Shown in pieces: positions 9,444 through 51,040 of a DNA stretch of 64,000 bases; within the stretch, counting starts at the first letter, position 1, and the number at the start of each line of letters is the position of its first letter. The stretch lies in contig CASJPF010000004.1 of assembly GCA_949383255.1 (NCBI GenBank), positions 1 to 64,000 on the forward strand. Reading direction: 5' to 3'. This DNA comes from Lachnospiraceae bacterium. Its GTDB lineage: Bacteria; Bacillota; Clostridia; Lachnospirales; Lachnospiraceae. A program made the translations under genes and the position numbers. The notes below the pieces were generated by a model. That model did no database searches and was not told the DNA's origin. It saw only the letters and a list, made by a program, of their open reading frames with translations.

Positions 9444-10508
9444 ATGAAAAAATGGGTAATTCCTCTTTTGGCAGCAATTTTGCTGCTACAGGGGTGTACA
9501 AATCAGGATGCTGATGCAAAGGAAGTGACAGATACAGTTATTGTTGAGGAAGAACACAGCGAGGGGGAATCAAGAAGCACAATACTTGAGGAAAAACTTG
9601 AGAAGGAGGCAATGAGGCTCGAGGAGGAAACAGCGCAGCCTGAGGAGACAGGAGTGACATTTACAGATGATATTGGAAGGACAGTCAATGTAGAGAGTCA
9701 TGACAGGGTGGTTACTTTAATTGGAAGTTTTACAGATGTGTGGCTTTTGGCAGGCGGTGAAGTAGTGGGAGCAGCAAATGACTCATGGACCAGTTTTGAT
9801 TTGAATTTAGGAGAGGATGTGGTCAATATTGGATCGCATCTGGAACCAGATATTGAAAAGATTATTGCGGCAAAGCCTGATTTAGTGATTGCGAGTGCAA
9901 ATACAGATGCAGATATGGATATGGAGAAAATTTTGACAAATGCGGGTATTACTGTGGCATACTTTTCTGTCTCAAATTTTAATGAGTATATGAATATGTT
10001 GTCTATCTGCACAGATATTACAGGAAGAAAAGATCTTTTTGAAAAGAACGGGACAGAGGTCCAGAGATTGGTGGAGGCGGCAAGAGAGCGTGTAAACCAG
10101 AGGAATTTGGAAGGAAAAAAAGCGCCGCGCATTGTGTTCTTCCGCGCAAGCGCATCCAGTATTAAAGCAAAAGGAAGTTATGGCAATGTCGGTGGTGAGA
10201 TGCTTTGCGAGCTAGGTTGTATCAATATCGCTGATGAAGATGACAGCTTGCTTGATGACCTTAGTATGGAGGCAGTCATTACTGCTGATCCAGATTTTAT
10301 ATTTGTGACAACACAGGGGAAAGATACAAAGGCAGTTCAGCAAAATATTATGGACACTCTATTGAGCAATCCGGCATGGAATCGGTTGAGTGCTGTAAAG
10401 AATGGACAATACTATGTTCTAGAAAAGGAACTTTACAATCTAAAACCTAATGCAAGGTGGGGAGAGGCATATCAAAAACTTGCTGATATATTGTATGGAG
10501 AGTCTTAG
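9444..10508 (+). CDS. ABC transporter substrate-binding lipoprotein, iron-siderophore type
   Basis: 354 residues with lipobox LLQGC (Cys18), a Glu-rich linker (residues 27-67), then a FecB/BtuF-type periplasmic-binding domain. Diagnostic stretches are TFTDDIGRTVNVE, GSHLEPDIEKIIAAKPDLVIAS and the C-terminal NPAWNRLSAVKNGQYYV. It should capture a ferric siderophore, haem or cobamide outside the membrane; the ligand cannot be told. The matching permease and ATPase are on the opposite strand and converge on this gene. Its TAG stop at 10506-10508 lies inside a palindromic repeat shared with the ATPase gene end. Confidence 0.85.
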   Translation: MKKWVIPLLAAILLLQGCTNQDADAKEVTDTVIVEEEHSEGESRSTILEEKLEKEAMRLEEETAQPEETGVTFTDDIGRTVNVESHDRVVTLIGSFTDVWLLAGGEVVGAANDSWTSFDLNLGEDVVNIGSHLEPDIEKIIAAKPDLVIASANTDADMDMEKILTNAGITVAYFSVSNFNEYMNMLSICTDITGRKDLFEKNGTEVQRLVEAARERVNQRNLEGKKAPRIVFFRASASSIKAKGSYGNVGGEMLCELGCINIADEDDSLLDDLSMEAVITADPDFIFVTTQGKDTKAVQQNIMDTLLSNPAWNRLSAVKNGQYYVLEKELYNLKPNARWGEAYQKLADILYGES

Positions 10509-10533
10509 AGCGTGTTAATCACACGCTCTAAGA
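10503..10533. repeat. family A collapsed palindrome (end-to-end TAGAGCGTGT repeat)
   Basis: A perfect 12-bp inverted repeat (10503-10514 with 10522-10533) around a 7-base loop, core TAGAGCGTG/CACGCTCTA. It has no T-tract on either side. It contains the TAG stop codons of both convergent genes (10506-10508 plus strand, 10528-10530 minus strand). The ends match those of the full-length family A elements at 29492 and 37305. It may act as a bidirectional mRNA-end hairpin. Confidence 0.75.
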
Positions 10534-11286
10534 GAAGAAGTAGTAATTTCCCTCTTCATCAGAAAATTTTTTGATGTGTACATCAAAGACAGCCTCGATT
10601 ATGTGTTGTTGTAAGCACGCTTCAGGGGTGGCGATAGCAGCGATTTTTCTGTCTTGCATTATGACAAGTGTGTCAGAAATGCGAAGGGCCTGTCCAATAT
10701 CATGAAGCACAAGAATAATGGTTTTTCCTTGTTCTTTTAATTGCAATAGCATGTCCATAAAGGATTGCTGCGCATTTAAGTCCAGATATGTGGTTGGTTC
10801 GTCCAGAACAACATAGTCACAGTTTTGTGCCAATGTCATAGCGAAAAAAGCGCGCTGTCGGATTCCACCAGAGAGCGTGTCTGCATATTGGGCAGCATAG
10901 GGACTCACCTGTGTAAAATTCATTGCACTTTCTACTATTTTTACATCCTTTTGAGTTTTTCTGCGCGCGAATCCCAGGTGTGGGAAACGTCCGTGTTCCA
11001 CAAGGGTCTTTACAGGGAGAGTGGGAATAATGGTGCGCACTTGTGGTAGAAAGGAGAGTTTGCGTGCGCGTTCTCTAAGTGACAGGGCGAGATAGTCTGT
11101 GTTATCGAGATAGATAGAGCCAGCCGTGACTTTTGAAGAGCCGTTTAGGCATTGTAACAGAGTGGTTTTACCGCACCCATTGGGACCGATAATTGTGGTG
11201 ATTTCTCCCTTTTGAAAGCGAACGGAGATATCGTGCAGTATTGGCACAAAGCTGCAACTGATATTTACGTGACAAAATTCAAGCAT
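10528..11286 (-). CDS. ABC transporter ATP-binding protein, iron/cobalamin type
   Basis: 252 residues. The start at 11286 is preceded by AAGGAGG; reading from further upstream would lie inside the permease gene. It carries Walker A GPNGCGKTT, a Q-loop (LPQVRTII), signature LSGGIRQRA (Ile instead of the usual Gln), Walker B YVVLDEPTTYLD and the switch His in LVLHD. The pattern fits FecE/BtuD/FhuC. Its start overlaps the permease stop by eight bases, so the two are co-translated. It energises uptake with the lipoprotein at 9444. Confidence 0.9.
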   Translation of the reverse strand: MLEFCHVNISCSFVPILHDISVRFQKGEITTIIGPNGCGKTTLLQCLNGSSKVTAGSIYLDNTDYLALSLRERARKLSFLPQVRTIIPTLPVKTLVEHGRFPHLGFARRKTQKDVKIVESAMNFTQVSPYAAQYADTLSGGIRQRAFFAMTLAQNCDYVVLDEPTTYLDLNAQQSFMDMLLQLKEQGKTIILVLHDIGQALRISDTLVIMQDRKIAAIATPEACLQQHIIEAVFDVHIKKFSDEEGNYYFFS

Positions 11287-12280
11287 TGATTCTGCGTCCT
11301 CCTTTTTTTTGAAAGAGTAAATATAGAAAAAATGGTCCGCCAATAAAGGATAGCAATACTCCGGCAGGAAGTTCAAACGGTGCAAATAATACACGTCCTA
11401 GAGTATCACAGATAAGAACAAAGCTAGCCCCTAAAAGTGCGGAGCAAGGCAGTAAGTATCTGGCATCATTGCCAAAGAGTCGACGGCATATATGAGGAAT
11501 AATAAGACCGACAAAGCTTAATAGTCCCGCATAACTGACTGCGCAGCCAGAGAGAATACTGGATAGTATTAATAAAATTAGACGGACGCTAGCGACATGC
11601 AAACCAAGGGAGCGTGCAGTTTCGTCTCCCAAACAAAGAACATTGATGGACCTCGCAAACAGAAAGGACAAAATGAGCGCGGCAAGAATGGCTGTTGCGG
11701 GAAATCTCAATAGTTCAAATGTTAGACCTGAAAGGGAGCCAATCATAAAGGTTGTGAGATTTATGGTGATATCTGTGTCTATAAGTTTGATGGTATTAAT
11801 GCCTGCGTTTAAGAAACTGGATACTGTGATGCCTGCCAGAATAATCGTTGTGCGTGAACTGTCAGCCATATATGCCAGTCCGTAGATAGTAAGCGTGGCT
11901 ATAAGTGAACCTATAAAAGCTGCAACGGGAATGCCAAGTGTTCTGCTGCCGCCAAACATAAGTGAGAGCATTACTGCAAATCCAGCACCAGAGTTGACGC
12001 CAATGGTGTTTGGACTTGCAAGAGAATTATTCATAACGCTCTGTAGAATGACTCCAGCAGTGGAAAGTCCCATACCTGCAAGACATGCACCTACAGCTCT
12101 TGGAAGACGTACTGTATTAATTAGAATATAGGCAGTGGTATCTTTATCAAGTCCGGTGAGACAACGCAGGACACTTTTAGGAGAGAGAGGGACACTTCCA
12201 AGAAGAATACCCGCTAAAAAGCAGAAAGTCAGCAATAATATTAGCAATAAAAATTTTTTTAGTACTGAGCTTGATTTCAT
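11279..12280 (-). CDS. FecCD-family ABC permease
   Basis: 333 residues from the ATG at 12280. An AAAGGA lies 16 bases upstream, so the start is not certain. About nine to ten membrane helices are visible. FecCD/BtuC motifs: GSVPLSPKSVLRCL, RLPRAVGACLAGMGLSTAGVILQ, NSLASPNTIGVNSGAGFAV and the coupling helix GLIIPHICRRLFG. It is the membrane channel of the iron/cobalamin uptake system with the overlapping ATPase. Confidence 0.9.
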   Translation of the reverse strand: MKSSSVLKKFLLLILLLTFCFLAGILLGSVPLSPKSVLRCLTGLDKDTTAYILINTVRLPRAVGACLAGMGLSTAGVILQSVMNNSLASPNTIGVNSGAGFAVMLSLMFGGSRTLGIPVAAFIGSLIATLTIYGLAYMADSSRTTIILAGITVSSFLNAGINTIKLIDTDITINLTTFMIGSLSGLTFELLRFPATAILAALILSFLFARSINVLCLGDETARSLGLHVASVRLILLILSSILSGCAVSYAGLLSFVGLIIPHICRRLFGNDARYLLPCSALLGASFVLICDTLGRVLFAPFELPAGVLLSFIGGPFFLYLLFQKKGGRRINA

Positions 12281-12349
12281 AGATATTTGTATTTGTTCCT
12301 TTCTATTCTTTTGCAATTTGATAAATTTATCATCGCATATTTTTTAGGT

Positions 12350-13054
12350 TTAATCAAATAATATTTTATCGACAGTCACAAATTCATATCCTTCTTTTGT
12401 CAATGCATCAATCACAACAAGAGCTGCCTCCACAGAAGTATCATAATAGTCATGTAAAAGTATGATGTCATTATCGGACACTTTGCTAAGAACTGCATTT
12501 GCGACGCGACTTGTGCTTGCAGTACACCAGTCGAGAGGGTCAACATTCCAGAGGACAGGAAACATGTTTAGATCTGTCTCGAATTTTTTGTCCCATGAAC
12601 CATAAGGAGGACGAACATATTGTACCTCGTCGCCAGTGATTTCGTGTAAAATTTCATTTGTCTGTATCAGTTCATCTTTGAATTGTTCGCGGTTTGATTC
12701 GGTAAGTTGAATATGGCTGTAAGTATGATTGCCAATCAGATGTCCTTCGTCATACATTCTTTTGACAATTTCAGGGTGAAGTTCTGCATGTTCTCCAGTG
12801 ACAAAGAATGTGGCTTTCACACCGCGCTCCTTTAGCCCGTCGAGCAGTTTTTCTGTGTATACTGGATGGGGACCGTCATCAAAGGTAAGTGCTACGCGCC
12901 GAATATCCAAAGAATTAAGTTCAGCGGGGGGTGGGTCCAGAGAGGCAATCGCAGGAATGGATTGTCGATACAACAAAGATTTTGCTATGGCAGCCAGCGT
13001 CAAACACATACAGATGAAATATAATATATTGAAAATACGATTATAATGTTTCAT
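12350..13054 (-). CDS. polysaccharide deacetylase (NodB homology)
   Basis: 234 residues. The ATG at 13054 was chosen because GGTGA lies eight bases upstream; a GTG at 13066 is possible. One N-terminal membrane anchor (residues 8-27) is followed by a NodB domain: TFDDGPH (catalytic and metal Asp), HTYSH (metal His pair), RPPYGSWD and LHDYYD near the end. All the metal and catalytic residues expected for a CE4 enzyme are present, so it probably removes acetyl groups from peptidoglycan or a surface glycan outside the membrane. Confidence 0.88.
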   Translation of the reverse strand: MKHYNRIFNILYFICMCLTLAAIAKSLLYRQSIPAIASLDPPPAELNSLDIRRVALTFDDGPHPVYTEKLLDGLKERGVKATFFVTGEHAELHPEIVKRMYDEGHLIGNHTYSHIQLTESNREQFKDELIQTNEILHEITGDEVQYVRPPYGSWDKKFETDLNMFPVLWNVDPLDWCTASTSRVANAVLSKVSDNDIILLHDYYDTSVEAALVVIDALTKEGYEFVTVDKILFD

Positions 13055-13261
13055 ATACAGAATCACCGCAATATACTGTATTCTTAACTATAATATGCAT
13101 AGGACCATGACAAGATTACTTTTTGAGAGCGCTGAGCTAATGATTATATAATTTTTTAATTAATGTTCTGTTGTGTGAACATTCAATTAATGATATACTA
13201 AATGTCATAAAATGAAATGCCTTGCGGAGTACGATTAATTAATAAGAGAGGTCTGATATCA

Positions 13262-13759
13262 ATGGAAAAAAATAAAAAATGGGATATATTTGAGGATTTG
13301 ACTGCAAAATGTTATAAGTCACAAGATAATGGAAATATTATAAAGGAGAGTTGGTACAGTGCATATGATACGCTTCTGGAAATTATTGAGGAAGAGCGAA
13401 AAAAATCTCCTGATTGCTTTATGGAGTTGGCAGAGATTGATCAGAAGACGGAATATAAATATAATGTGCAAAGCTGGGTAGATGATTATTTTAAGGAGTT
13501 GAGTGTTCTTGGAGATTACAATAGAATCTATGAAGACGGCACACGGTTAATCAATGCGTTTCAGTGGCAGATGCAGACTCCAGCACAGATTAAGCTGCGG
13601 GTAATCAATGCGATGGAACGACTAGGAATGCATGAAGCAGCAAGCCGATGTAGTGAGGAGTGGGTAGTGCAGAATCCAGATAACATCAATGCGCTTTTCG
13701 CCGCGTTAATCTTTGGAAAAAAAGATTGTATCAAAGAAAAAGTAATTGAGGAGAAGTAA
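13262..13759 (+). CDS. uncharacterised protein, possibly TPR-like
   Basis: 165 residues. The ATG at 13262 has AGAGAGG about ten bases upstream; an in-frame ATG at 13217 has no such site. It is a soluble, all-helical, charged protein. The C-terminal half (YNRIYEDGTRLINAF to NPDNINALFAALIFG) looks like degenerate tetratricopeptide helices. I do not recognise a family. It stops one base before the epimerase ATG, so the two genes form an operon and it may support sugar-nucleotide or glycan metabolism. Confidence 0.6.
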   Translation: MEKNKKWDIFEDLTAKCYKSQDNGNIIKESWYSAYDTLLEIIEEERKKSPDCFMELAEIDQKTEYKYNVQSWVDDYFKELSVLGDYNRIYEDGTRLINAFQWQMQTPAQIKLRVINAMERLGMHEAASRCSEEWVVQNPDNINALFAALIFGKKDCIKEKVIEEK

Positions 13760-13760
13760 G

Positions 13761-14834
13761 ATGCTAGAAAAGAATATTAAACTAGACGGCAGCACGATAC
13801 TTGTGACAGGTGCAGCTGGTTTTATTGGCGCAAACCTGATACTGGCACTCATGAAAAATGCACAGAATATTCACATTGTAGGCATTGACAATATGAATGA
13901 CTATTATGATGTGGCACTCAAAGAATTTCGACTTACGCAGATTAAGGAGTGTAGCACCAAGGCGTCAGGTAATTTTACGTTTATTAGAGGAAGCATTGCC
14001 GATAAAACTCTGGTCAGTGAGTTATTTGCACGATATCAGCCACAAGTTGTAGTCAATCTTGCGGCGCAGGCGGGTGTGCGCTATAGTATTGAGAATCCAG
14101 ATGCTTATATTGAATCTAATCTGATTGGATTTTACAATATTCTTGAGGCATGTCGGCACAGCTATGACAATGGTGCAAAGGGTGTGGCACATCTAGTATA
14201 TGCAAGTTCTTCGTCTGTTTATGGGAGCAACAAGAAAATTCCTTATGCGACAGAAGACAAAGTGGATAATCCGGTGTCTCTTTATGCTGCCACAAAGAAA
14301 TCTGATGAGCTGTTGGCACATGCCTACGCAAAATTGTACAATATCCCCTCCACAGGACTACGTTTTTTTACAGTGTATGGTCCGGCGGGACGACCAGATA
14401 TGGCGTATTTCGGTTTTACAGATAAGCTTGTGAAGAATGAAACAATAAAAATTTTTAATTATGGAAATTGCAAACGTGACTTTACGTACATTGATGATAT
14501 TGTTATAGGAATAGAGGCAGTTATGCAGTGTGCGCCGCTTCCCAATGAGGATGGCGTGAAGTATAAGATTTATAATATTGGAAACAATCAACCGGAAAGC
14601 TTGTTGGATTTTGTGGAGATATTGCAGGATGAGCTCAAGTCTGTTGGAGTGTTGCCAGAGAACTATGACTTTGCAGCACACAAGGAGTTTGTGGGAATGC
14701 AGCCGGGTGATGTGGAAGTCACATATGCGGATGTCAGTGCATTAGAACGAGATTTTGGATTTAAACCGTCGACGGCTCTTCGTGAGGGACTCAGAAATTT
14801 CGCACAGTGGTATAAACAATTTTATGCAAATTAA
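13761..14834 (+). CDS. UDP-glucuronate 4-epimerase-like SDR
   Basis: 357 residues. The ATG at 13761 follows GAGGAG, which lies in the end of the preceding gene. The extended SDR fold shows the NAD motif VTGAAGFIGANL, catalytic YAATKK with upstream SSSSVYG, and LRFFTVYGPAGRPDMAYF, which is characteristic of UDP-glucuronate 4-epimerases. It probably makes UDP-galacturonate for surface polysaccharides. Gal/Glc epimerases differ at the GRPDMA segment, which supports this choice. Confidence 0.85.
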   Translation: MLEKNIKLDGSTILVTGAAGFIGANLILALMKNAQNIHIVGIDNMNDYYDVALKEFRLTQIKECSTKASGNFTFIRGSIADKTLVSELFARYQPQVVVNLAAQAGVRYSIENPDAYIESNLIGFYNILEACRHSYDNGAKGVAHLVYASSSSVYGSNKKIPYATEDKVDNPVSLYAATKKSDELLAHAYAKLYNIPSTGLRFFTVYGPAGRPDMAYFGFTDKLVKNETIKIFNYGNCKRDFTYIDDIVIGIEAVMQCAPLPNEDGVKYKIYNIGNNQPESLLDFVEILQDELKSVGVLPENYDFAAHKEFVGMQPGDVEVTYADVSALERDFGFKPSTALREGLRNFAQWYKQFYAN

Positions 14835-15041
14835 TTACATGCGATAAAAAATAAGTTTCTATCTGCCGGATTAGCAATGCACCTTTTAACGGGAAAAATA
14901 CAATTGCGTTGGCAGATGTAAAAGTGCAATGGTATGAGTTCTGCGGATGAAAGAACAGGTTGAAACATCTTTTAAAGATGCTTTAACCTGTAGATAGATA
15001 AGTTTTTAAGAGCGTATGTCAAACATGCTCTAAAGTGTTAG
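14835..15041. repeat. intergenic region with two hairpins, one a collapsed family A repeat
   Basis: It lies between the epimerase and the convergent regulator gene. A 15-bp imperfect stem occupies 14957-14989 (AGGTTGAAACATC partner GATGCTTTAACCT), with no T-tract. A second hairpin at about 15008-15032 (AGAGCGTATGT / ACATGCTCT) has the same ends as family A at 10503 and sits ten bases from the regulator's stop codon. Both could end the convergent transcripts. Confidence 0.5.
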
Positions 15042-15959
15042 TTAGATTAGTTTTGACTGGTTTTCCCTCAGCGACTGACGATATTCAGTGGGGGTACAGC
15101 CCATAGTTTTCTTAAAAACTTTATTAAAATAACTAGTATTATTGAAACCGACAATGCCTGCAATTTCAGAGATGGATTCATGAGTTTTGCGATACATATA
15201 TTTTGCGGACTCCATAATCCTGTATCGCATCAAATACTCGATTGGGGAGAGTCCTGTCACGCGTTTGAAACATCGGCAGCATTCGCTTTTGCTGACAAGA
15301 ATGGCGTCGGAAATATCTGCTAAGGTAACAGGATCCATAAAATGTTCTTGTATGTAAAGGATTGCCTGTTTGACCCGATAGGCGTCCTGATTTGCAGTGC
15401 GCGCAGTAGTGTTATGAGAGGCTGGTGATGCGGCGGGAAGCTGATCGTAAATGAGTTTCCATAACTGTAATACATAAGACTTGCTAAGCAGTTCATAACC
15501 AACAGGATGTTCTGTGTTAAGTGCAATCAGGAGATTTAAAGGCAGTAAAAACTGTTGGTACAACACGTTATTTTTGGTAATGTGCAGATAGCAAAATGTC
15601 TGACTAGAGATTACAGGACTAATATATTTGCTTTCTAGTTCGAGTTGACCATATCCCAAAATAAAGGAGGGATGAACAACAACACAGCAAAAAATTCCTC
15701 CGCCATCTTCAGAGGGAGTGATAAAGTGTCTAACGCCCTGATTGACAAAGACAATATCTCCTTCGGACACATATAAATTTTGCTCGTTGCATGTTATATA
15801 GGCATGACCTTTGAGCACATATTGAAACTCAATTTCATCGTGCCAGTGCCAGTGTACAATCGGTGCATCGGGTACAGTACAATCAAATGTGGAAAGCTCT
15901 AAGGGATATCCGCTGAGCAAAAGCTGTTGTGTGCGTTTTACATAAAAGTCAAGGTCCAT
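15042..15959 (-). CDS. AraC-family transcriptional regulator with cupin sensor domain
   Basis: 305 residues. The start at 15959 has GAAGGA with proper spacing. The N-terminal cupin-like AraC_binding domain contains PIVHWHWHDEIEFQYVLKGHAYI. The C-terminal pair of helix-turn-helix units has ISDAILVSKSECCRCFKRVTG and IAGIVGFNNTSYFNKVFKKTMG. It is divergent from araA with a 686-bp region between them, so it is a good candidate for the arabinose regulator, although sugar specificity cannot be read from sequence. Confidence 0.88.
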   Translation of the reverse strand: MDLDFYVKRTQQLLLSGYPLELSTFDCTVPDAPIVHWHWHDEIEFQYVLKGHAYITCNEQNLYVSEGDIVFVNQGVRHFITPSEDGGGIFCCVVVHPSFILGYGQLELESKYISPVISSQTFCYLHITKNNVLYQQFLLPLNLLIALNTEHPVGYELLSKSYVLQLWKLIYDQLPAASPASHNTTARTANQDAYRVKQAILYIQEHFMDPVTLADISDAILVSKSECCRCFKRVTGLSPIEYLMRYRIMESAKYMYRKTHESISEIAGIVGFNNTSYFNKVFKKTMGCTPTEYRQSLRENQSKLI

Positions 15960-16211
15960 GAAATTAATTCCTTCTTTCCTGCTAAGAAACCATTCAAAAA
16001 TAGACAAGTCAAGATACGTAGTCTATTTATAAATCGCTTCTATGCAATAGGTATTCCGCTGCTTTTCATAAGTTTGAAAAAGTAGCGCAAATCATATGTA
16101 AAATTGATATTTTTTATTAACAAAAATATCAATTTTTATACCGATAGTATCTAACATTGTATCAAAATCTGAGAAGGTGTGAACAGTGACGGTATTCCAG
16201 TCTCATATTGA

Positions 16212-16273
16212 TAGGGCAGTAACATGATTATCTTATTTATGATGACAGGTGAAACAGTGTAGGGCAGTAACAT
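16212..16273. promoter_or_regulatory. pair of 14-bp direct repeats between regulator and araA
   Basis: TAGGGCAGTAACAT occurs twice, at 16212-16225 and 16260-16273, exactly 48 bp apart, in the region shared by the AraC-type regulator and araA. Direct repeats are typical AraC-family binding sites. A candidate -10 TATAAT lies at 16330-16335 and another at 16408-16413 (TTGTGA with a 19-bp spacer). Confidence 0.5.
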
Positions 16274-16425
16274 TCTATGTTATTCATTTTAATATAGTAT
16301 ATCATATTTTAAGAAAAAAACAATTAGTGTATAATAAAATATTTTATTGTTTGATAAAATAAATATTGTTTTCTGCCGCGTTTTGTGATAAAAATATAGT
16401 GAAGAGCTATAATAGAATTTTTTAT

Positions 16426-16607
16426 TTATCTCAGCCGGAGAAGATGCCCGCTTCTATAAGTGGCGGGTAAAATATAATTTTGTCTCAGTGGGAGTACAAT
16501 TTCCGACTAAGATAAGTCTTCAGTAGGATTGCAAGCGTGCAAATCTGCAATATGTCAGCAAAGCTGACTCGCACGCCGCAGCAAGAATACCAATGGCATT
16601 CTTGAAT
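16426..16607 (+). repeat. family E dispersed repeat, copy 1
   Basis: About 180 bp, from TTTATCTCAGCCGGAGAAG to GGCATTCTTGAAT. The reverse complement of 33473-33646 aligns over the full length, sharing CTTCTATAA, TCTCAGTG, GTACAAT, AAGATAAG, the hairpin GTCAGCA-R-GCTGAC, CGCACGCCGCAGCAAGAAT and the final CATTCTTGA. It lies directly upstream of the araA ribosome site and so is probably within the araA leader mRNA. Confidence 0.8.
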
Positions 16608-16645
16608 AGTATGTATCAAACTGTATAAAAAATAGGAGGGATACC

Positions 16646-18142: not shown

Positions 18143-18149
18143 AAGCATA

Positions 18150-18440
18150 TTACTCAAAATATAGACGTTTTGGTTTTTCGACAAATTCTACTTCGTCAAG
18201 ATCAGCAAAGGCATCTATAAAATCTTCTCTTACAGTTGCGATGGCATAGCCATTGATTAGAGGTTCAATATGGATAACTTCTGACTCTAATCGCTCTAAG
18301 GGACCATGATATTTAACAATTAATTCCCAAGTTTTTGTCGTAGGAGTATATCCTGTACCAAGGACTTGGGATTTTTGTAATTCGGTTTTTGTGGCGGACA
18401 GAGCAAGATTAAGGAGATTTTCAAGTTTTGCGTTTGCCAT
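18150..18440 (-). CDS. stand-alone subtilase (S8) propeptide-like protein
   Basis: 96 residues, ATG with GGGAA upstream. The sequence (KLENLLNLALSAT, WELIVKYHG, GYAIATVREDFIDAFADL, VEFVEKPKRLYFE) closely resembles, from memory, the N-terminal prodomain of the S8/Csp-type peptidases common in Lachnospiraceae. In those proteins the catalytic domain continues directly after the EKPKRLYF motif. Here a TAA stop follows at once, and the next DNA is the 3' end of araA on the other strand, so no catalytic domain exists. It may be a free protease inhibitor/chaperone or the relic of a truncated protease. Confidence 0.65.
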   Translation of the reverse strand: MANAKLENLLNLALSATKTELQKSQVLGTGYTPTTKTWELIVKYHGPLERLESEVIHIEPLINGYAIATVREDFIDAFADLDEVEFVEKPKRLYFE

Positions 18441-18543
18441 ATAAACATTTCCCTTTTATCAAAATAATGTTATAGTAAGATATGATCTGTAAGGGTTATT
18501 GTTCACCAAATTTTATATGGATTTTTATTCGTAACTTGTGAGT

Positions 18544-18708: not shown

Positions 18709-18819
18709 ATGCGCATTTTGTAAGAATATGATTCAGAAATGAGGGGCGGTTTTTGCGAAGCAAAATTTGAAATATTGCTCCAAATAGTAATGCTTGTGGA
18801 GAGATTTACTATAAAAAGG

Positions 18820-29491: not shown

Positions 29492-29659
29492 CTAGGGCGT
29501 GTCTAAATATGTTATGGCATGACATCTATACGCCCCGCTTTGCATGATATTTGTGCAGAATTCAGGTTACATAGTCTGCTATGCACTCTTCATTTGGCAC
29601 AAATTTCTCACAAATTGTAACGCACATCTGGTAAAAAGTATTTTTCACACACGTTCTAG
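29492..29659. repeat. family A element, full copy 1
   Basis: About 168 bp bounded by CTAG on both sides. Ends are TAGGGCGTGTCTAAATATG and the complement TAGAACGTGTGTGAAAAAT. The centre is the palindrome ACATAGTCTGCTATG, flanked by CTTTGCATGATATTTG and CACAAATTGTAACGCACAT. It matches 37305-37470 across its length. Confidence 0.8.
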
Positions 29660-36418: not shown

Positions 36419-36443
36419 TTAATGAAATAGAAGGAGAATGTAT

Positions 36444-37319
36444 ATGAAAGACTATATTGTGCGGGCAACGGCAGCGAATGCACAGATTAGAGCTTTTGCA
36501 ATGACTTCGCGTGCACTTGTGGAGGAGGCGCGGAGGATTCATAATTTAAGTCCTGTAGTTACGGCTGCACTAGGGCGGCTGCTCACGGCGGGGGCTATGA
36601 TGGGCAGTATGCTTAAGGGAGAGAAAGATGTGCTGACATTGCAGATTCATTGTGATGGACCTGTGCGTGGTCTTGCGGTCACGGCGGATGCGAAGGCGAA
36701 TGTTAAGGGGACTGCCTTAGAGCCGCAGGTGATGCTTCCGCCAAATGCACTTGGAAAGCTAGATGTGGGCGGTGCTGTGGGAAATGGCATTTTGAGTGTT
36801 ATTAAGGATATGGGTTTAAAGGAACCTTATGTTGGACAGACACAGTTGCAGACTGGCGAGATTGCTGAAGATTTTACCTATTATTTTGCGACTTCCGAAC
36901 AGATTCCGTCTGCAGTTGGACTTGGCGTGCTAATGGAGAAGGATAACACAGTAAAACAGGCGGGGGGTTTTATTATTCAATTGATGCCTTTTGCGGAGGA
37001 TGAGACAATTAATACCTTGGAAGAAAAGCTCAAGACAATGGATAGTGTCACCAATATTCTTAATGCCGGTAATACTCCCGAACAGCTTCTTGAGTTTCTA
37101 CTAGGTGATTTGGGACTGGAAATCAACGATACGATATCGGCACAGTATCATTGTGATTGTAGTCGTGAGCGTGTGCAGCGGGCAATTATCAGCATTGGAA
37201 AAAAGGATATCCAGGAGATGGTTGATGATGGTAAGTCTGTTGAGGTTCGATGTCAGTTCTGTGATAAAATCTATAATTTTGAGATTGCGGACCTTGAAAA
37301 AATGCTAGAGCGTGTCTGA
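36444..37319 (+). CDS. hslO: Hsp33 redox-regulated chaperone
   Basis: 291 residues. The ATG at 36444 is seven bases from AAGGAG; an ATG at 36438 is too close. The N-terminal domain (YIVRATAANAQIRAFAMTSR) and C-terminal zinc switch with two Cys pairs (HCDC and CQFC) are complete. Oxidation releases zinc and turns on holdase activity. The last three residues (ERV) and the TGA stop at 37317-37319 fall within the end of a family A repeat. Confidence 0.94.
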   Translation: MKDYIVRATAANAQIRAFAMTSRALVEEARRIHNLSPVVTAALGRLLTAGAMMGSMLKGEKDVLTLQIHCDGPVRGLAVTADAKANVKGTALEPQVMLPPNALGKLDVGGAVGNGILSVIKDMGLKEPYVGQTQLQTGEIAEDFTYYFATSEQIPSAVGLGVLMEKDNTVKQAGGFIIQLMPFAEDETINTLEEKLKTMDSVTNILNAGNTPEQLLEFLLGDLGLEINDTISAQYHCDCSRERVQRAIISIGKKDIQEMVDDGKSVEVRCQFCDKIYNFEIADLEKMLERV

Positions 37320-37470
37320 AAAATCATTCCTGCCTCCTGTACGTTTCACTTTGCATGATATTTGCGTTAAATTCAGGCATCGTAGCCCACTACGTCTCCT
37401 TTATTTAGCGTGAATTTCCCACAAATTGTGACGCACATTTGGCAGAAAGCATTTTTCAGATACACTCTAG
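37305..37470. repeat. family A element, full copy 2
   Basis: 166 bp bounded by CTAG. Terminal inverted repeats TAGAGCGTGTCTGAAAAAT and TAGAGTGTATCTGAAAAAT (reverse strand). The centre CGTAGCCCACTACG is flanked by the imperfect arms TTAAATTCAGG and CCTTTATTTAG. It contains the hslO stop and ends 26 bp before the next minus-strand stop. Confidence 0.85.
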
Positions 37471-37496
37471 TGGAAACAAAAGTATAGTGTTATATT

Positions 37497-41541: not shown

Positions 41542-41552
41542 GAGGAAAAACG

Positions 41553-42425: not shown

Positions 42426-42426
42426 A

Positions 42427-43836: not shown

Positions 43837-43850
43837 TGGATAGTTTTGAG

Positions 43851-43879
43851 GTAACAGGTCAGCTTGTCTGAACTGTTAC
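43851..43879. repeat. family D collapsed palindrome
   Basis: GTAACAGGTCAG / CTGAACTGTTAC around CTTGT, one mismatch. It has the same ends as the full element at 62562-62748. It sits 14 bp after the MBOAT stop and 32 bp before the DHHW start. Confidence 0.65.
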
Positions 43880-43911
43880 GTTTTGAGACGTTGGAAAGGA
43901 CAGAAAATGAA

Positions 43912-45027
43912 ATGAAGAACAGGGACAAATGGATTACTATTGCTTTTCTTATTTTTATACTGGTGATACCACTTGTGACTGTGGTGCGCAATCTGCTGCC
44001 AAGTCAGCAAGAGAATGAACTGACAGATGAAGAACAAGCAATTTTGGAGCAGAACGGAACTCTGGCGAATGGAACACAGGCAGACACGAAAGATAATACA
44101 GAAAACAGCATGCCAAAAGAGACAGGATTTGCCAAACTGCAAAAAAGTATTAATCAGTTTACGGATAGTTTGTTTGGGCGGACAAAGCTAATTGGTTTTA
44201 ATACAGAGTTGACTTCACTCCTCACGGGAGGGACCTATATTGAGTCTACACAGACGCTTATGGGAAAAAATAATATGTTTTTCTATAAGACAGAACTTGA
44301 CGGGCACCCTATCTGGGACTATATGGGAATTAATCATTTTACAGAGGAGGAGATGGCGGCAATCGCTGCAAATCTCGTGGCGACAAGAGAACATCTGGCA
44401 ATGAGAAATATTGAGTTTTATACAATGTGCATTCCCAATAAAGAGATTATTTACGCAGAGAATATGCCAGATACCATTGCAAGAGTCAATAAAATTTCCC
44501 GTGGAGAACAACTAGCAAACTATCTAAATGAGAATACAGATTTGGTGTTTGTGTATCCCAAGGATGCGCTGATGGCAAACAAGGACAAGGTGCAACTCTA
44601 TTACAGTACGGATTCTCATAGCAATCAAATCGGGGCTTTTGTAAATATGCAGGAATTTTTTAGAACAGTGTACGGCACACATGCAGAGATAGATTCCGTT
44701 CGTTTTCGGACAGATGCGACAGACTATTCTGGTGATTTGGTTATGCTTGCAGGTTTGACAGGCAAGTACAATATTGATGCCGTATATGCGTTCGAGCCAG
44801 AATCAGCTGACAAAGCGCAATATCATGATCAAGTATTATTGTATGTTGGAGATTCCTTCGGCGGATTTCTGTCACAGATTTGTAAGGGATATTATAAGGA
44901 AGTTTACTGGGAGGATGCGCGGGATTTTCAATATAATATGCTGGACCGATATCAGCCAGATGTTGTGATCTGGGAGCGCGCAGAGCGTTACTGCGAGGTG
45001 TTTCAAGATCCGATTTTCATCAAGTAA
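43912..45027 (+). CDS. DHHW/AlgJ-like extracellular acetyltransferase partner, copy 1
   Basis: 371 residues. The ATG at 43912 has AAAGGA 11 bases upstream; a TTG at 43864 inside a hairpin was rejected. One N-terminal membrane helix (residues 6-26), then an extracytoplasmic SGNH-like domain with STDSHSNQ (catalytic Asp-His region) and YVGDSFGGFL (nucleophile Ser motif). It probably completes transfer of acetyl groups delivered by the adjacent MBOAT protein. Confidence 0.82.
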   Translation: MKNRDKWITIAFLIFILVIPLVTVVRNLLPSQQENELTDEEQAILEQNGTLANGTQADTKDNTENSMPKETGFAKLQKSINQFTDSLFGRTKLIGFNTELTSLLTGGTYIESTQTLMGKNNMFFYKTELDGHPIWDYMGINHFTEEEMAAIAANLVATREHLAMRNIEFYTMCIPNKEIIYAENMPDTIARVNKISRGEQLANYLNENTDLVFVYPKDALMANKDKVQLYYSTDSHSNQIGAFVNMQEFFRTVYGTHAEIDSVRFRTDATDYSGDLVMLAGLTGKYNIDAVYAFEPESADKAQYHDQVLLYVGDSFGGFLSQICKGYYKEVYWEDARDFQYNMLDRYQPDVVIWERAERYCEVFQDPIFIK

Positions 45028-45117
45028 TCATCCGATAAAAAATAAATTAAAATAGATAAAAAGTACCATAAAAATACACGAGAATAAACGTATATAGAGT
45101 ACCGGGAGGGGGTCTGT

Positions 45118-45651
45118 GTGGAGGAGAAACAGTTCGATGCGTGCATGGAGCGCATGAAATCCGGCGATAAGGGTGCATTGCATGAAATTTATGAGGCGTA
45201 TCTGGGATATATTTATTCCATTGTACTTCAGACTGTATCAAACCGTGAGGATGCAGAGGATGTCACCAGTGAGTTTTTTATGAAATTATGGCGACTTGCA
45301 GATACATACCGTGGTGGGAATGGGCATCGAGCATGGATGGCGGCAATTGCCCGCAATATGGGGATTGACCTTATGAGAAAGACGAAGCGGGAGATTTTAA
45401 CAGAAGATTTTGCAGATACGATGACAGAAACAGCATCAGATACGTGTGTTGAGATGGAGGTTCTCTCAGATATGGGGTTGCGGCAGGCGCTTGACGCGTT
45501 AAAGCCTAATGAGCGGGAAGTTGTGAATTTAAAAATTATGGGAGAGTTAACTTTTCAGGAGATAGCAGATATTCTTAAAATTCCACTTGGAACAGTAACT
45601 TGGCGATATCAAAATGCAATCAAAAAGTTAAGGAGATATGGTTATGAGTAA
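45118..45651 (+). CDS. ECF-type sigma factor
   Basis: 177 residues, GTG start after GGGAGGGGG. Sigma region 2 (YSIVLQTVSNREDAEDVTSEFFMKLW) and region 4 (ALDALKPNEREVVNLKIMGELTFQEIADIL) are clear; no region 3. Its last 8 bp overlap the putative anti-sigma gene, a typical arrangement. The target genes probably include the envelope genes around it. Confidence 0.9.
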   Translation: MEEKQFDACMERMKSGDKGALHEIYEAYLGYIYSIVLQTVSNREDAEDVTSEFFMKLWRLADTYRGGNGHRAWMAAIARNMGIDLMRKTKREILTEDFADTMTETASDTCVEMEVLSDMGLRQALDALKPNEREVVNLKIMGELTFQEIADILKIPLGTVTWRYQNAIKKLRRYGYE

Positions 45652-46390
45652 GGATTTGGAAAAAGAATATAAGGCACTCATGAACAGTGAAGCGCCAGAT
45701 TTGTGGGCACGCATTGAAGCAGGGATAGAGGAAAAAACAGTGTGTTCGCACCAAGAGATTTTTGTCAAAGTAAAGCGCGGCAGTAAGATATGGGTAGGGT
45801 TTGCGGCTGCGTGTGCGTGTGTGGCATTAAGTATTCCTGTCATTATGAGATATTTTCCTGTTAGTGGCAACAAGCTTGATATTGTGTTTGACAATGCAGC
45901 ATCTGCGGGGTGTGCACCAGAAGCAGCAGCTGGGGTTGAGGATGAGACAGTGTTGGAGGAAGGCATTAGCCCAGCGGCTATGAATGAAGAATTTGATGGT
46001 GCAGGCAATCGCTTGAATACAGTTACAACAGATAGTGTAGGTGATCGTTCAAGTGCAGTTGTGTCAGAAAAAGCAGGCAAAAGTTCTAACATGGATATTC
46101 CGGAGGCAACAGTAGAACAAGAAAGAGGCAGCTTTACTGTCACAGCAGAAATTCTTGGAAGTGATATTGGCAGAGATAATGGTATTCTGTATACAGTTAG
46201 GGTGATTGAATCACAAAGTGCAGCTGTGCAGGTGGGTAGTGAAATCAAAATTTTTAGTGCTGCGTTGCCCGAAGAGAATATGATAACACTCATAGAGTCC
46301 CAACCCTATAAACTCACGGTTACTAATAATACATCATACAGTGAGGAAGAAGAGATTATCTATATTTTACAGACAGTTGAGAAGCAGTAA
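45644..46390 (+). CDS. putative anti-sigma factor / membrane protein
   Basis: 248 residues. The ATG at 45644 is eight bases after AAGGAG. A cytosolic segment (1-48) precedes one membrane helix (50-70) and an extracytoplasmic domain with an Ala/Glu-rich linker and a C-terminal beta domain (GSFTVTAEILGSDIGRDNG). Its overlap with the sigma gene and its single helix suggest an anti-sigma factor, but no zinc-type ZAS motif is visible. Confidence 0.65.
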   Translation: MSKDLEKEYKALMNSEAPDLWARIEAGIEEKTVCSHQEIFVKVKRGSKIWVGFAAACACVALSIPVIMRYFPVSGNKLDIVFDNAASAGCAPEAAAGVEDETVLEEGISPAAMNEEFDGAGNRLNTVTTDSVGDRSSAVVSEKAGKSSNMDIPEATVEQERGSFTVTAEILGSDIGRDNGILYTVRVIESQSAAVQVGSEIKIFSAALPEENMITLIESQPYKLTVTNNTSYSEEEEIIYILQTVEKQ

Positions 46391-46516
46391 TTTTAACAAT
46401 ATATTTTAATGAATACTTATGAAAAATCACGGTAACAATAGGAATGTCAGATGCACTCCCAGAGTTTTTGGAGGGGAGATTTCGAGAGGCAATTTTAAAA
46501 GGAGGAGTAAATTTGT

Positions 46517-47125
46517 ATGAAGAAAAGGAAAATAATGAATAAGATAGGATTAGCTGCAATTTTAATGACACTTTCTCTGTCAATGCTGACAGGTTGCGGT
46601 AATAGGAGTGACAGAACTTCAGATGAGGTGCCGACGCAGGAGAATGTAGACACAGCAGGAATGGTGCATTTAAACAGCGTAGATGAAGTTTCTGCATTTA
46701 TGGATGAAGTATATGGGGGCGTGGCAGAAGACCTGCTCCCAATGGAAGTGATGACAACAGAGCTTGACTTAGGGGATACCGATATGATTTCATATCATAC
46801 GGGTCTGACGGACTTGGACGGCATTGCAGGAATTTATCTGTCTGAGTCTATGATGACTTCGACAGCTTATAGTGCTGTGTACATCAGAACTACAGATGAC
46901 GCGGATGCGGAAGCGATCCGTCAGCAGCTTATGGACAATATCAATCCGTCAAAGTGGGTTTGTGTGACAGCAGAACAACAGTACGCAGTGTTGGTCGGCA
47001 ATGATATTTTTTTTGTGATGGGATATCAGGATACAGCCTCCACAGTGCTTGAGAAAGCGATTGCGGCGGCTGAGGCGCGAAATATGAAAGTTTCAGATAA
47101 GCTTGAAAAGGCGAATCCAATATAA
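46517..47125 (+). CDS. DUF4358 lipoprotein
   Basis: 202 residues, ATG after GGAGGAG. Lipobox LTGC (Cys27). The remainder matches DUF4358 (MISYHTGLTDLDGIAGIYLSESMMTSTAYSAVYIR, VLVGNDIFFVMG). Family members are lipoproteins next to MBOAT/DHHW acetylation genes, as here. The role is unknown. Confidence 0.82.
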   Translation: MKKRKIMNKIGLAAILMTLSLSMLTGCGNRSDRTSDEVPTQENVDTAGMVHLNSVDEVSAFMDEVYGGVAEDLLPMEVMTTELDLGDTDMISYHTGLTDLDGIAGIYLSESMMTSTAYSAVYIRTTDDADAEAIRQQLMDNINPSKWVCVTAEQQYAVLVGNDIFFVMGYQDTASTVLEKAIAAAEARNMKVSDKLEKANPI

Positions 47126-47140
47126 ATAGGAGAGGCACCG

Positions 47141-48628
47141 ATGCTTTTTTCCAGTATTACATTTTTATATTTGTTTCTGCCATTGACCATAATATTTTAC
47201 TTTTTTGTGCCGCAGAAAGGGAAGAATTTAGTATTGCTTGTAATGTCGCTTCTGTTCTATGCATGGGGAGAACCAGTGTACGTTCTTCTCATGCTTGCGC
47301 AGATTGTGATTTCCTATGTGCTTTTGTGGTTTGTGGACAGATTTCGGGAAAGAAGGGCAGCCGGAATATTCTATATTCTGTCTGTTCTTTTGCCATTTGC
47401 AGCGTTATTTTATTTTAAATATTTTCATTTTTTTATGGACACAATATTTGGTATTCGGACAAAGACCATTGCGCTTCCAATTGGTATTTCGTTCTATACG
47501 TTTCAGATTGTAAGTTACTGTGTGGATGTGTACTGTGGCAGGGTAAAGCGACAAAAAAACCTTGTTACTTATGCGGCATATGTGACGCTTTTTCCGCAGT
47601 TGGTTGCAGGACCCATTGTCCGTTACAGCGAGATTGAACAAACACTTACAAAAGGCATTGATTTTTCTAAATTTCATAAAAGCTTTGGGCAGGGCCTAGT
47701 GCGCTTTGTGGTTGGGTTGGGCAAAAAAGTATTGATTGCCAATGTTATTGGTGAGTTTGTGGCGGAGGTTGCGGCGCTTGGTCAGCGCAATCTAACACTG
47801 TCATGGGCATATGCAATCGCAGTGTCGTTGCAGATATATTTTGATTTTTCAGGGTATTCAGACATGGCGATTGGGTTAGGCGGCATTTTTGGTTTTTCGT
47901 TCCCAGAAAATTTTAGATATCCGTTTATTTCTCAAAGCGTTACTGAGTTCTGGCGACGGTGGCACATCACACTTGGCGCATGGTTTCGGGACTATGTTTA
48001 TATTCCAATGGGAGGAAACCGAGTTTGTATGCCAAGATGGATACTGAATATTTTTGTAGTTTGGCTTTTTACTGGGTTGTGGCATGGAGCTGGATGGAAC
48101 TTTATAGTGTGGGGACTTTTGTTTGCGGTGCTGCTTGTTATGGAAAAAGGAGTGGGGAGGCTGTTTGGCAATAGGAAAAATTCTGGCAGTGCAATGGACA
48201 GTAAAAGTGTTTTAAAAAAAGATTTGGCAAAGGCATTGATAGGTATTGTAAAACATGGATATGTAATTTTTATAATACTGATAAGTTTTTTGATATTTCA
48301 TAATGATAGCTTATCCAATGCCGTGGCAGATATACAAGCATTGTTTGCGCAGGGAAGCCATATTGCTCACAATTTGGGGAGCGTGGAGCATGCAGTGTAT
48401 GCATATGTGATGCGCAATCGGATGATAATATTGTGTGTTGGTCTACTTGGTTCAACGCCGCTGCCATTGTGGATTTGGACAAAGCTGCAAGAAAGGTTGC
48501 AAACAGTTAGGATTGGAAACAAAATAATATATGTATTGACAAGTGCAATGGTGCTCTGTGTGATGGTGCTCTGCACGGCCTATTTAATTGATGGTTCTTT
48601 TAATCCGTTTTTGTATTTCCGATTTTAG
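47141..48628 (+). CDS. MBOAT-family O-acyltransferase, copy 2
   Basis: 495 residues, ATG after AGGAGAGG. Same motifs as the first copy: LPIGISFYTFQIVSYCVDVY, YFDFSGYSDMAIGLG, TEFWRRWHITLGAWFRDYVY and LFTGLWHGAGWNFIVWG. A longer C-terminal loop (residues 345-385) distinguishes it. Its TAG stop (48626-48628) lies at the start of a family A repeat half. Confidence 0.92.
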   Translation: MLFSSITFLYLFLPLTIIFYFFVPQKGKNLVLLVMSLLFYAWGEPVYVLLMLAQIVISYVLLWFVDRFRERRAAGIFYILSVLLPFAALFYFKYFHFFMDTIFGIRTKTIALPIGISFYTFQIVSYCVDVYCGRVKRQKNLVTYAAYVTLFPQLVAGPIVRYSEIEQTLTKGIDFSKFHKSFGQGLVRFVVGLGKKVLIANVIGEFVAEVAALGQRNLTLSWAYAIAVSLQIYFDFSGYSDMAIGLGGIFGFSFPENFRYPFISQSVTEFWRRWHITLGAWFRDYVYIPMGGNRVCMPRWILNIFVVWLFTGLWHGAGWNFIVWGLLFAVLLVMEKGVGRLFGNRKNSGSAMDSKSVLKKDLAKALIGIVKHGYVIFIILISFLIFHNDSLSNAVADIQALFAQGSHIAHNLGSVEHAVYAYVMRNRMIILCVGLLGSTPLPLWIWTKLQERLQTVRIGNKIIYVLTSAMVLCVMVLCTAYLIDGSFNPFLYFRF

Positions 48629-48650
48629 AGCGTGTTTGAAGTATCGTTTA
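48626..48650. repeat. family A half-element
   Basis: TAGAGCGTGTTTGAAGTATCG resembles one end of family A; no matching second end was found nearby. It overlaps the MBOAT stop codon. Confidence 0.5.
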
Positions 48651-48682
48651 GAATGCATTTTTGATTTTCGGGAGGTAGCTTT

Positions 48683-49885
48683 GTGAAAGAAAGTAAGTGG
48701 AAACAATATATCACAATCTATGGTTTTGTTTTCTGTCTGGTAAGTGTGATGGTGATTATGATAATTTCTCCCAAGAAGGCTATTTCTAGCGCTGAGCGCC
48801 GTCGTTTGGCGGAGAAACCTAAACTGACGGTAAAAAATTTGATGGATAAGTCTTTTATGGACGATACAGAAAAATATCTGCTCGACCACTTCCCATTTCG
48901 AGATGGACTTCGACGCATTAAAGCGTCTTTTGCCTATGATATATTGCAACAGAAAGAAAATAATGATATTTATGTTGTGGATGGTCATGCGTCAAAATTG
49001 GAATATCCGTTAAATGAGGCATCAGTTAAGAGGCTTTCGGACAAGATGAAAGGACTTCGACAGCAATATTTTCCAGAACAGACAGTTTGGTATGCCATTG
49101 TGCCGGATAAAAACTATTTTTTGGCACAACAAAATGGTTTTCCATCAATGGATTATAAGCGTATAATCGACCTTCTATCGCAAGCGCTCAGTGCAGATGA
49201 CGTTCCGAATGCGGCGTTTCAATATATGGATATTATGTCAGAATTGTCAATCGACGACTACTATCACACAGATACACACTGGCGTCAAGAGCGGATTCTC
49301 GGTGTCGCATGCCATGTTGCAGACGCGCTCGGTGTGGTAGGACTTTTATCTTTTTCTACGGATAGTCAAGAAACATTTACAGAAAATAAAATCAAAAATT
49401 TTTATGGTGTTTACTATGGTCAGGCAGCACTTCCTATGGAACCAGATACGATGGTGTATCTCACAAGTGAAGTGACGGATGCCGCGCGGGTGTGGAGCCT
49501 AGAGGAAAATATGCAAAGCGGGAAAAAGACCACAACAGTGATGCTGCCAGATGAGCAAGGAGCAGTTTGGAAGATGGTTTATCAGACAGAAAAACTTGAG
49601 GATGGAAAGAGCCTTGACAAGTATGATATCTTTGTGGGCGGTGCGTCTTCCTTGCAAGTTATTAGAAGTCCAAAAGCGTCTTCACAAAAACGGCTGATTT
49701 TGTTTCGTGATTCTTATACAAGCAGTCTTGCGCCTCTTTTACTGGAGGCGTATAGGGAGATTGTTCTAATTGATTTGCGCTATATTGATTCCACACGAAT
49801 TGGAACATATGTAGATTTTGCAGAAGCAGATATCTTGTTTTTGTATAATACGTCGATTGTCAATCATTCGGAAATGCTCAAATGA
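48683..49885 (+). CDS. DHHW-family protein, copy 2
   Basis: 400 residues, GTG start after GGGAGG. One N-terminal helix (residues 10-30), then an extracytoplasmic domain with HTDTHWRQERILGVA (Asp-x-His-Trp motif) and ILFRDSYTSSLAPLL (nucleophile Ser). It is the partner of the upstream MBOAT protein for O-acetylation of a surface polymer. Clear relative of the protein at 43912. Confidence 0.88.
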   Translation: MKESKWKQYITIYGFVFCLVSVMVIMIISPKKAISSAERRRLAEKPKLTVKNLMDKSFMDDTEKYLLDHFPFRDGLRRIKASFAYDILQQKENNDIYVVDGHASKLEYPLNEASVKRLSDKMKGLRQQYFPEQTVWYAIVPDKNYFLAQQNGFPSMDYKRIIDLLSQALSADDVPNAAFQYMDIMSELSIDDYYHTDTHWRQERILGVACHVADALGVVGLLSFSTDSQETFTENKIKNFYGVYYGQAALPMEPDTMVYLTSEVTDAARVWSLEENMQSGKKTTTVMLPDEQGAVWKMVYQTEKLEDGKSLDKYDIFVGGASSLQVIRSPKASSQKRLILFRDSYTSSLAPLLLEAYREIVLIDLRYIDSTRIGTYVDFAEADILFLYNTSIVNHSEMLK

Positions 49886-50071
49886 TAGTTTTTTTAATTA
49901 TGTTTTTACAAAACGTGCAGTTTATGTGCATTCCCCGTGAATCGTAATTTTTTCTTGCCATATCACGAAACTAAGTGTAAGATAGAAATTACAGTTGGTT
50001 TTGTATAACTTGGTGCTTGCAATAGGGGCCAACGACCTTAAAAAGATATGGTGAAAACGGGAGACAAAGCG

Positions 50072-51019
50072 ATGCAAAAAAGTATTTTGGAATATAATTT
50101 AATGCGCAAGAAGGTATCCAATAAAAACTCTTTTGAGATAGAAGCGGAAGAAAAGCTGGGACGAAATGACGATTGTTGGTGTGGAAGTGGCAAAAAGTAT
50201 AAAAAGTGTCATTGTTCTTTTGATGAAAAACTTGATGAATACAGGCATAAATGTATTTTAGTACCACCGAGGCGTATTATTAAAAACCCTGTGCAAGTAC
50301 AAGGGATTCGTGAAAGTGCGAAGATTAACATAGAAATTTTGAATTATATTGACGAGCATATTCAGGCAGGAATATCAACGCAGGAAATTGATAATTGGGT
50401 GTGTACTATTACTAAAAAGTACAATGCAATTGCGGCAACCTTGAATTATGAGGGGTATCCAAAGAGTGTTTGTACTTCTATTAATAATGTTGTATGTCAT
50501 GGGATTCCGTCCAAAAACGAAATTTTAAAGGATGGGGATATTGTGAATGTAGATGTGTCTACAAAATACAAAGGCTATTTTTCGGATTCCTCAAGAATGT
50601 ATTGTATAGGAAATGTCTCTGCGGAGAAGAGGCGTCTGGTGGAGATTACCAAACAAAGTCTGGAAATTGGTCTGCAATATATTCAGCCGTGGAGAAAAAT
50701 CGGGGATATGGGTGCTGCGATTCACGAGTTTGCAGTGCAGAATGGTTATTCTGTGGTGCGGGAGATTGGCGGACATGGTGTCGGTCTTGAATTTCATGAG
50801 GACCCGTGGGTTAGTTATGTCTGTCAAAAGGATACTGGAATGTTGATGGTGCCGGGAATGGTTTTTACAATTGAGCCTATGATTAATATGGGAAAAGAAG
50901 ATATATATATTTCGGATGATGATGGATGGACGGTCTATACTGAGGACGGCTTGCCTTCAGCGCAATGGGAGATACAGATTTTAGTCACAGAGGACGGATA
51001 TGAGATTATTTCGTACTAG
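50072..51019 (+). CDS. map: type I methionine aminopeptidase with N-terminal SEC-C zinc motif
   Basis: 315 residues. The ATG at 50072 has GGAGAC seven bases upstream; an ATG at 50048 is possible. Residues 31-49 form a SEC-C motif (GRNDDCWCGSGKKYKKCHC). The peptidase domain has CTSINNVVCHGIPS, VNVDVSTKYKGYFSDSSR, GHGVGLEFHEDPWV and TIEPMINMG, with all five metal ligands. It trims initiator Met. Firmicutes usually have one without the SEC-C part beside secY; this looks like an additional paralogue. The TAG stop lies in a family A half-repeat. Confidence 0.93.
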   Translation: MQKSILEYNLMRKKVSNKNSFEIEAEEKLGRNDDCWCGSGKKYKKCHCSFDEKLDEYRHKCILVPPRRIIKNPVQVQGIRESAKINIEILNYIDEHIQAGISTQEIDNWVCTITKKYNAIAATLNYEGYPKSVCTSINNVVCHGIPSKNEILKDGDIVNVDVSTKYKGYFSDSSRMYCIGNVSAEKRRLVEITKQSLEIGLQYIQPWRKIGDMGAAIHEFAVQNGYSVVREIGGHGVGLEFHEDPWVSYVCQKDTGMLMVPGMVFTIEPMINMGKEDIYISDDDGWTVYTEDGLPSAQWEIQILVTEDGYEIISY

Positions 51020-51040
51020 GATATGTTTGAAAAATCCGCC
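51017..51040. repeat. family A half-element
   Basis: TAGGATATGTTTGAAAAATC resembles one end of family A and includes the map stop codon. No clear opposite end was seen. Confidence 0.45.

Follow-up and report, generated by a model that had tools for sequence, protein, structure and literature searches.

Several described mobile elements each have something in common with the repeats considered here. IS711 (IS6501) of Brucella is an 842-bp insertion sequence (IS) with two overlapping frames and a supposed -1 frameshift, which duplicates TA at YTAR and prefers palindromic Bru-RS repeats (PMC2266754, PMC3163539). In Paracoccus, the IS427 group of the IS5 family (IS1248 among others) comprises elements of 832-865 bp that have ends of 13-21 bp and two frames with a frameshift motif; they duplicate 2 bp of target, apart from a single 4-bp case (PMC3281130). 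QMITE1 and QMITE2 of Coxiella burnetii, which are miniature inverted-repeat transposable elements (MITEs), show overlaps of 1-50 bp with the 3' ends of genes, and the C-terminus of one gene is read from the MITE (PMC5896051), and RUP of Streptococcus pneumoniae has ends in common with IS630-Spn1 and a TA target (PMC2229807). Here, we describe a palindromic repeat, family A, in a 64,000-nucleotide stretch of a Lachnospiraceae bacterium (hereafter the window; assembly GCA_949383255.1, contig CASJPF010000004.1, positions 1 to 64,000 of the forward strand), in which five genes end at or in the repeat. A sequence-only reading had interpreted family A as a mobile palindrome of the IS630/mariner type that settles at gene ends and becomes both stop codon and mRNA 3' hairpin.

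Our results make it very likely that an IS427/IS711-like transposase of the IS5 family mobilises family A, a MITE, in trans, with TAG stops re-formed at the YTAR target from the TA and the G that follows it. Within the passages cited above, the probable parent IS resembles IS711 in size, in a putative two-frame layout, in the use of YTAR with TA duplication and in insertion into palindromic repeats, and it resembles the Paracoccus group in size, short ends, 2-bp duplication and, putatively, the two frames. IS711 belongs to another phylum, and Bru-RS is described as its target, whereas family-A palindromes bear the IS's own ends; the passages on IS711 do not mention stop-codon overlap (PMC2266754, PMC3163539), and those on the Paracoccus group mention neither a palindromic MITE nor a stop-codon effect (PMC3281130). 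QMITE1 and QMITE2 share with family A the overlap at gene 3' ends and a C-terminus read from the MITE, as in hslO below, although they are other elements in another organism. RUP is likewise a MITE with IS ends and a TA target, but with an IS630 rather than an IS5 transposase. Searching the literature for the letters of family A found no paper on it, no title or abstract start was recognisable as concerning it, and one topic search was too broad.

Copies of family A in the window proved real and lie where the sequence-only reading had placed them. A full copy at 37306..37469 (+ strand; 164 bp including the TA at both edges) occupies a C-TA-G target within the 3' end of hslO, and a more diverged, decayed full copy at 29493..29658 (+; fold z -1.05) is intergenic, with no gene stop at its edges; both are bracketed by CTAG, as had been claimed. 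A collapsed element at 10506..10530, consisting of TA, a 21-bp core and TA, sits in a TTAA target common to two convergent stops. A weak collapsed hairpin at 15009..15031 (z -2.5), possibly a decayed copy, is away from stop codons. Single ends occur at 48626..48644 (+), immediately 3' of the codons of the second MBOAT gene, and, more weakly, at 51017..51035 (+), at the TAG of map, with four mismatches measured on identical letters in the near-twin genome G060. The 19-base family-A end, with at most three mismatches, matched the window four times against 0.01 expected. An Rfam scan of the window found two tRNAs and nothing else.

The genome carrying the window (G000) is a draft assembly of 4.38 Mb in 169 contigs, 86% complete. 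A mismatch-tolerant search of it with the 19-base end, using the reversed pattern as background, confirmed the repeats, with 30 matches at up to three mismatches against one for the control. Allowing Y at the variable base gave 44 matches against six, so some of the weakest are due to chance; ends with five mismatches were not used because the reversed control was about equally frequent. Six full copies in this genome, 161-166 bp long, can be aligned along their entire length. A covariance model, R1, was dropped as a copy counter because most loci below 70 bits belong to another palindromic family (24 loci were read, of which six are the full copies). Across 60 genomes searched, including this one, 15 hold a family-A end with at most one mismatch, and G034 alone has 304 ends. 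Family A is short and non-coding, has terminal inverted repeats, occurs in many copies, duplicates its target and has matching empty sites in relatives; these are non-autonomous palindromic elements, that is, MITEs.

A candidate parent IS emerged from related genomes. Contigs of G030 break about 139 bases inside family-A ends, where the interior reads as the start or end of a transposase, and G003 holds a complete IS copy end to end (846 bp with TA) whose transposase frame is decayed. A scan of named genomes with the N-terminal piece of this IS yielded 38 loci, all fetched, with hits in Robinsoniella peoriensis, Eubacterium plexicaudatum ASF492, Lachnospiraceae bacterium A2 and Blautia sp. MSJ-9, among others. 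Both ends (at most three mismatches) were present in 18 of the 31 loci scanned for them, and all 18 copies, several of them from one genome and hence not 18 independent species, are flanked by YTA...TAR. Fifteen are 842-880 bp long, the other three 911, 915 and 988 bp. In ten copies, an N-terminal frame of 116-132 aa is followed by a stretch in the -1 frame (f+2) with the usual C-terminus, so that a frameshift may join the two; the remaining eight are decayed or otherwise arranged. The first transposase frame matched NF033580 (IS5 family) at 132 bits against a cut-off of 110, plus PF13340, and the second matched PF01609 above its cut-off and NF033580 below it, placing the pieces in the IS5 family by NCBIfam and in DUF4096 and DDE_Tnp_1 by Pfam. 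No solved structure matching the N-terminal piece was found. MITE and IS have 21-23 bp in common at each end, and their interiors show no convincing likeness. Judged by these ends, of which 19-23 bp match those of the 842-880 bp IS in relatives and other Lachnospiraceae, family A appears to be a MITE whose parent is an IS5-family element of the IS427/IS711 kind; IS711 itself we take to be a member of that family. In G000, a PF13340 search gave no match, and none of nine PF01609 loci checked had convincing family-A ends, the best showing four mismatches. The IS may have been lost or may have collapsed in draft assemblies, as where the G030 contigs break, or another transposase may act.

The target of family A is YTAR, that is (C/T)TA(G/A), with the TA duplicated. 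This was read from 144 ends with at most two mismatches and TA at the start, ends outside these limits being left out, in stretches of four relatives (G034, G003, G007 and G032) selected for holding family-A ends. TA is preceded by C in 100 of these ends, by T in 38, by A in five and by G in one, or by Y in 138 of 144, compared with a background outside called genes in the same DNA of 41% for Y and 13% for C; any preference beyond the Y at -1 is weak. Genes were called with a simple codon-usage caller written for this analysis, and fractions at stops are therefore approximate. Empty sites with a single TA in relatives bear out the proposed TA duplication. Removing the element and one TA from the hslO site gives a gap-free junction alignment to G061 and G022 (G021 shows a small gap), and the TAG stop of the G061 orthologue aligns with a TAG in the right flank of our copy; at the 10506 site, G021 aligns without gaps when one TA is kept, and G061 and G002 differ by gaps. 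Of 66 ends located in G034, none fell deep within a called gene. Insertion into CTAG leaves YTAG at both edges, and the site therefore stays usable; 10 of 211 distinct flanks (identical flanks merged) are themselves another family-A end. Another lead, IS1301 with the target AYTAG, was set aside, as AYTAG was absent from the papers listed.

The five stops in the window are in frame as had been described, and comparison with orthologues changes how they are to be understood. The substrate-binding-protein gene (9444..10508, +; TAG at 10506-10508) and the convergent ABC ATPase gene (10528..11394, -; TAG at 10530-10528) meet at the collapsed element. G021 reads CATTAATAAAAG where our genome has TCT-TA-[element]-TA-AGAGAAG, with the binding-protein stop at the same place, and its shared TTAA forms the stops of both genes, TAA there corresponding to TAG here; insertion at 10506 turned each convergent TAA into TAG. 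Where the ATPase gene neighbours the binding-protein gene in element-free relatives (13 of 13), it stops one codon after YYFF (TAA, TAG or TGA); G020 lacks the ATPase at that place and G060 has the element there. The second MBOAT gene (47141-48628, +; stop at 48626-48628) ends in FLYFRF in all 16 loci read of 30 returned, followed by TAG (6), TAA (4) or TGA (6), and the 13 without a family-A end stop at the same residue; the end follows the gene only in G000, G060 and G034, while G032 reads TAGGAGCTGT there, of ambiguous family-A identity. For map (50048-51019, +; TAG at 51017-51019), G021, which lacks the element, uses TAA after that very residue, and the stretches of other relatives gave no match. 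The fifth gene, hslO (36438..37319, +; named after the earlier reading), ends with ERV and TGA (37317-37319) read from the element, and its native stop would be TAG at 37485-37487; among 20 loci read from 35 genomes, 18 are free of the element and differ in their tails, and the element-derived ERV-TGA occurs only in G000 and G060. The element thus appears to account for the third base in four of these stops and, in hslO, for the entire stop. The claim that the repeat supplies stop codons to at least five genes holds for hslO but not for the other four, whose repeat-free orthologues end at the same codon, an outcome that the sequence-only reading had itself named as refuting it. The claim mostly reverses cause and effect, in that the element for the most part keeps stops and does not create them.

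If insertions were biased toward stops, as settling at gene ends would imply, family-A ends should exceed other target sites there. Exact coincidence with a stop was seen for 8 of 144 ends in the four relatives, compared with 28 of 735 non-coding YTAG sites in the same DNA (p 0.36), with three further ends resembling the TGA case of hslO; an earlier count in G034 only (2/66 ends versus 3/15 CTAG sites outside gene interiors) was replaced by this one. Of the 44 ends in our own genome, seven coincide with stops, versus 10 of 378 control sites (p 7e-4). All seven are among the 28 ends with two or three mismatches (p 4e-5 against the same control sites), and none of the 16 ends with zero or one mismatch is exactly on a stop (0/16 versus 7/28, p 0.037), one of the 16 being the hslO case. 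For six of the seven, no second end lies close by. Further genes of our genome that finish at a family-A end are at C2:45666, C5:80046, C15:10807, C15:19494, C23:45187 and C38:14460. In the window itself, the 29493 copy, the 15009 hairpin and a doubtful end at 62543 are not at stops. Settling at gene ends is therefore not borne out in the relatives sampled, and only decayed ends of one genome are enriched; we take this to mean no insertion bias toward stops, with preferential survival there being possible.

These observations can be accommodated by the following mechanism. Because the terminal repeat begins with G, each insertion gives Y-TA-GAGCG...CGCTC-TA-R. Where the target TA is part of a TAG or TAA stop, the host TA and the first G of the element restore a TAG in the codon that already was the stop, whichever strand the gene is on, and the protein is therefore unchanged; even two convergent stops would be safe. 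Insertions deep in genes would be purged, as their absence from our sample suggests, leaving intergenic and stop-codon sites, and one insertion at a 3' end, that in hslO, survived by replacing the last few codons. The palindrome may later collapse by internal deletion into hairpins such as 10506-10530 or into single ends. The end on the gene side would be protected, its first G now being the third base of a stop, and such ends would be kept longest, which may be why decayed ends are over-represented at stops in our genome. The further reading, that stops are safe landing sites where selection locks in this base, with old ends gathering at them over time although insertion itself is unbiased, we put forward tentatively, as a possibility somewhat short of an even chance.

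Several points weigh against this account and against its transposon component. We infer mobilisation in trans from the shared ends, and of 38 genomes of the genus only four yielded PF13340, neither our own nor G034 with its 304 ends being among them; of the four matches, two have both ends, one has a single end and one (G060) has none. The 48626 and 51017 ends lack an empty site proving insertion, and by our own reading their spacers do not exceed those of relatives lacking the end. At 13 other loci the length of the binding-protein tail varies by some residues, so only G021 offers a clean comparison. The idea of retention draws on seven ends in one genome, and ends with three or four mismatches were on stops in none of seven cases in G034 and none of five in G003, G007 and G032. 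In the syntenic stretches, one of four decayed ends is on a stop, but this is the map site of G060, a near twin.

The same enrichment could reflect domestication, in which selection keeps single ends at stops as the remainder of the element disappears, the first base serving in the stop codon and the next 15 bases perhaps acting in the 3' untranslated region. We consider this unlikely, although it is consistent with the contrast between the 28 more diverged ends and both the control sites and the better-kept ends, and with the presence of a family-A end at the same MBOAT stop in G034 when G061, G021 and G022, whose MBOAT is closer to ours, lack it. The pattern comes from one genome, a home-made gene caller and small numbers, the seven genes include a short frame of 97 codons, the 12 decayed ends in relatives do not show it, and one-sided protection from deletion would explain it without any function.

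The proposal that the palindrome homes to gene ends and provides stop codon and 3' hairpin as a useful 3'-end module is very improbable in our view. Five window genes do end at or in the repeat, hslO did gain a new stop and decayed ends are enriched at stops in our genome, but relatives without the repeat use the same stop codon for four of the five genes, the 144 ends of the four relatives show no excess at stops and no well-kept end of our genome is exactly on one. As for the hairpin, the 37306 copy forms a single long one (-64.6 kcal/mol, z -9.6) with a weak predicted terminator near its loop, and the collapsed 10506-10530 copy also folds strongly (-19.5 kcal/mol, z -8.3), so this part of the claim would fit these two copies; the single ends at 48626 and 51017, however, are not more stably folded than shuffled sequences (z 0.2 and -0.5), and no intrinsic terminator was predicted at 10506. 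An IS630/mariner-type MITE, with TA duplicated by a Tc1/mariner-like transposase as in RUP of the pneumococcus, is scarcely credible and is rejected because of the transposase family: TA duplication is all that speaks for it, whereas NCBIfam and Pfam both place the transposase with the same ends in the IS5 family (no separate search was made for IS630 families) and the TA lies in a strong YTAR context.

Other palindromes and arrangements were seen alongside family A. The doubtful single end at 62543..62561 (+; four mismatches by hand count; no stop codon) adjoins an unrelated long palindrome at 62560-62755 with arms GTAACAGTTCAGCC...GGCTGAACTGTTAC, a 16-mer of which, GTAACAGTTCAGCCAT, is present in one of 342 fetched loci (L032). 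About a dozen of the G000 loci read (for instance C126:2863-3026, C61:18199-18360 and C12:11604-11767; L169, L170 and L172) belong to a second palindromic family, about 164 bp long, whose ends resemble TTAGGAACTGTAGAAAAATAAC, and many of the unread loci among the 62 places found by R1 in this genome score in its range. At 5781-5799 of the window, a two-mismatch match to its end overlaps the TAG stop of the gene at 4814-5782, so this family may show the same stop overlap. At G000:C92:2382-2570 (L178, L030), a collapsed family-A hairpin is immediately adjoined by a third palindrome, whose ends are TAGTACACCGTTTTTT. A recurring flank that ends in GGATGGAGTAC or GGATAGAGCAC lies just beyond the TA of family-A ends in more than one genus (G000:C21:54387, C16:4020, L053, L056 and L122) and is probably the end of another repeat that hosts family-A insertions. 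In G034, inward-facing family-A ends 1.1-1.4 kb apart enclose a rhomboid-like and a sensor-kinase-like frame, identified by eye (C24:8224-9365 and C18:12394-13823). Two insertions or a gene-carrying unit are both possible for such pairs; the carrier-element reading was not adopted, the enclosed genes of the pairs 1.1 and 1.4 kb apart being ordinary and the ends being taken as two separate insertions.

Family A belongs to a known kind of IS-derived MITE, and the instructive part is the arithmetic by which a G placed after TA preserves a stop. For a palindromic repeat spread over a genus of Lachnospiraceae-type bacteria, our analysis points to a parent IS. It also carries a warning, as repeats at gene ends may mimic functional 3' modules even though the stop of the orthologous gene came first. 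Overall, the target choice of a transposon together with the sequence of its ends can make insertion into a stop codon harmless.

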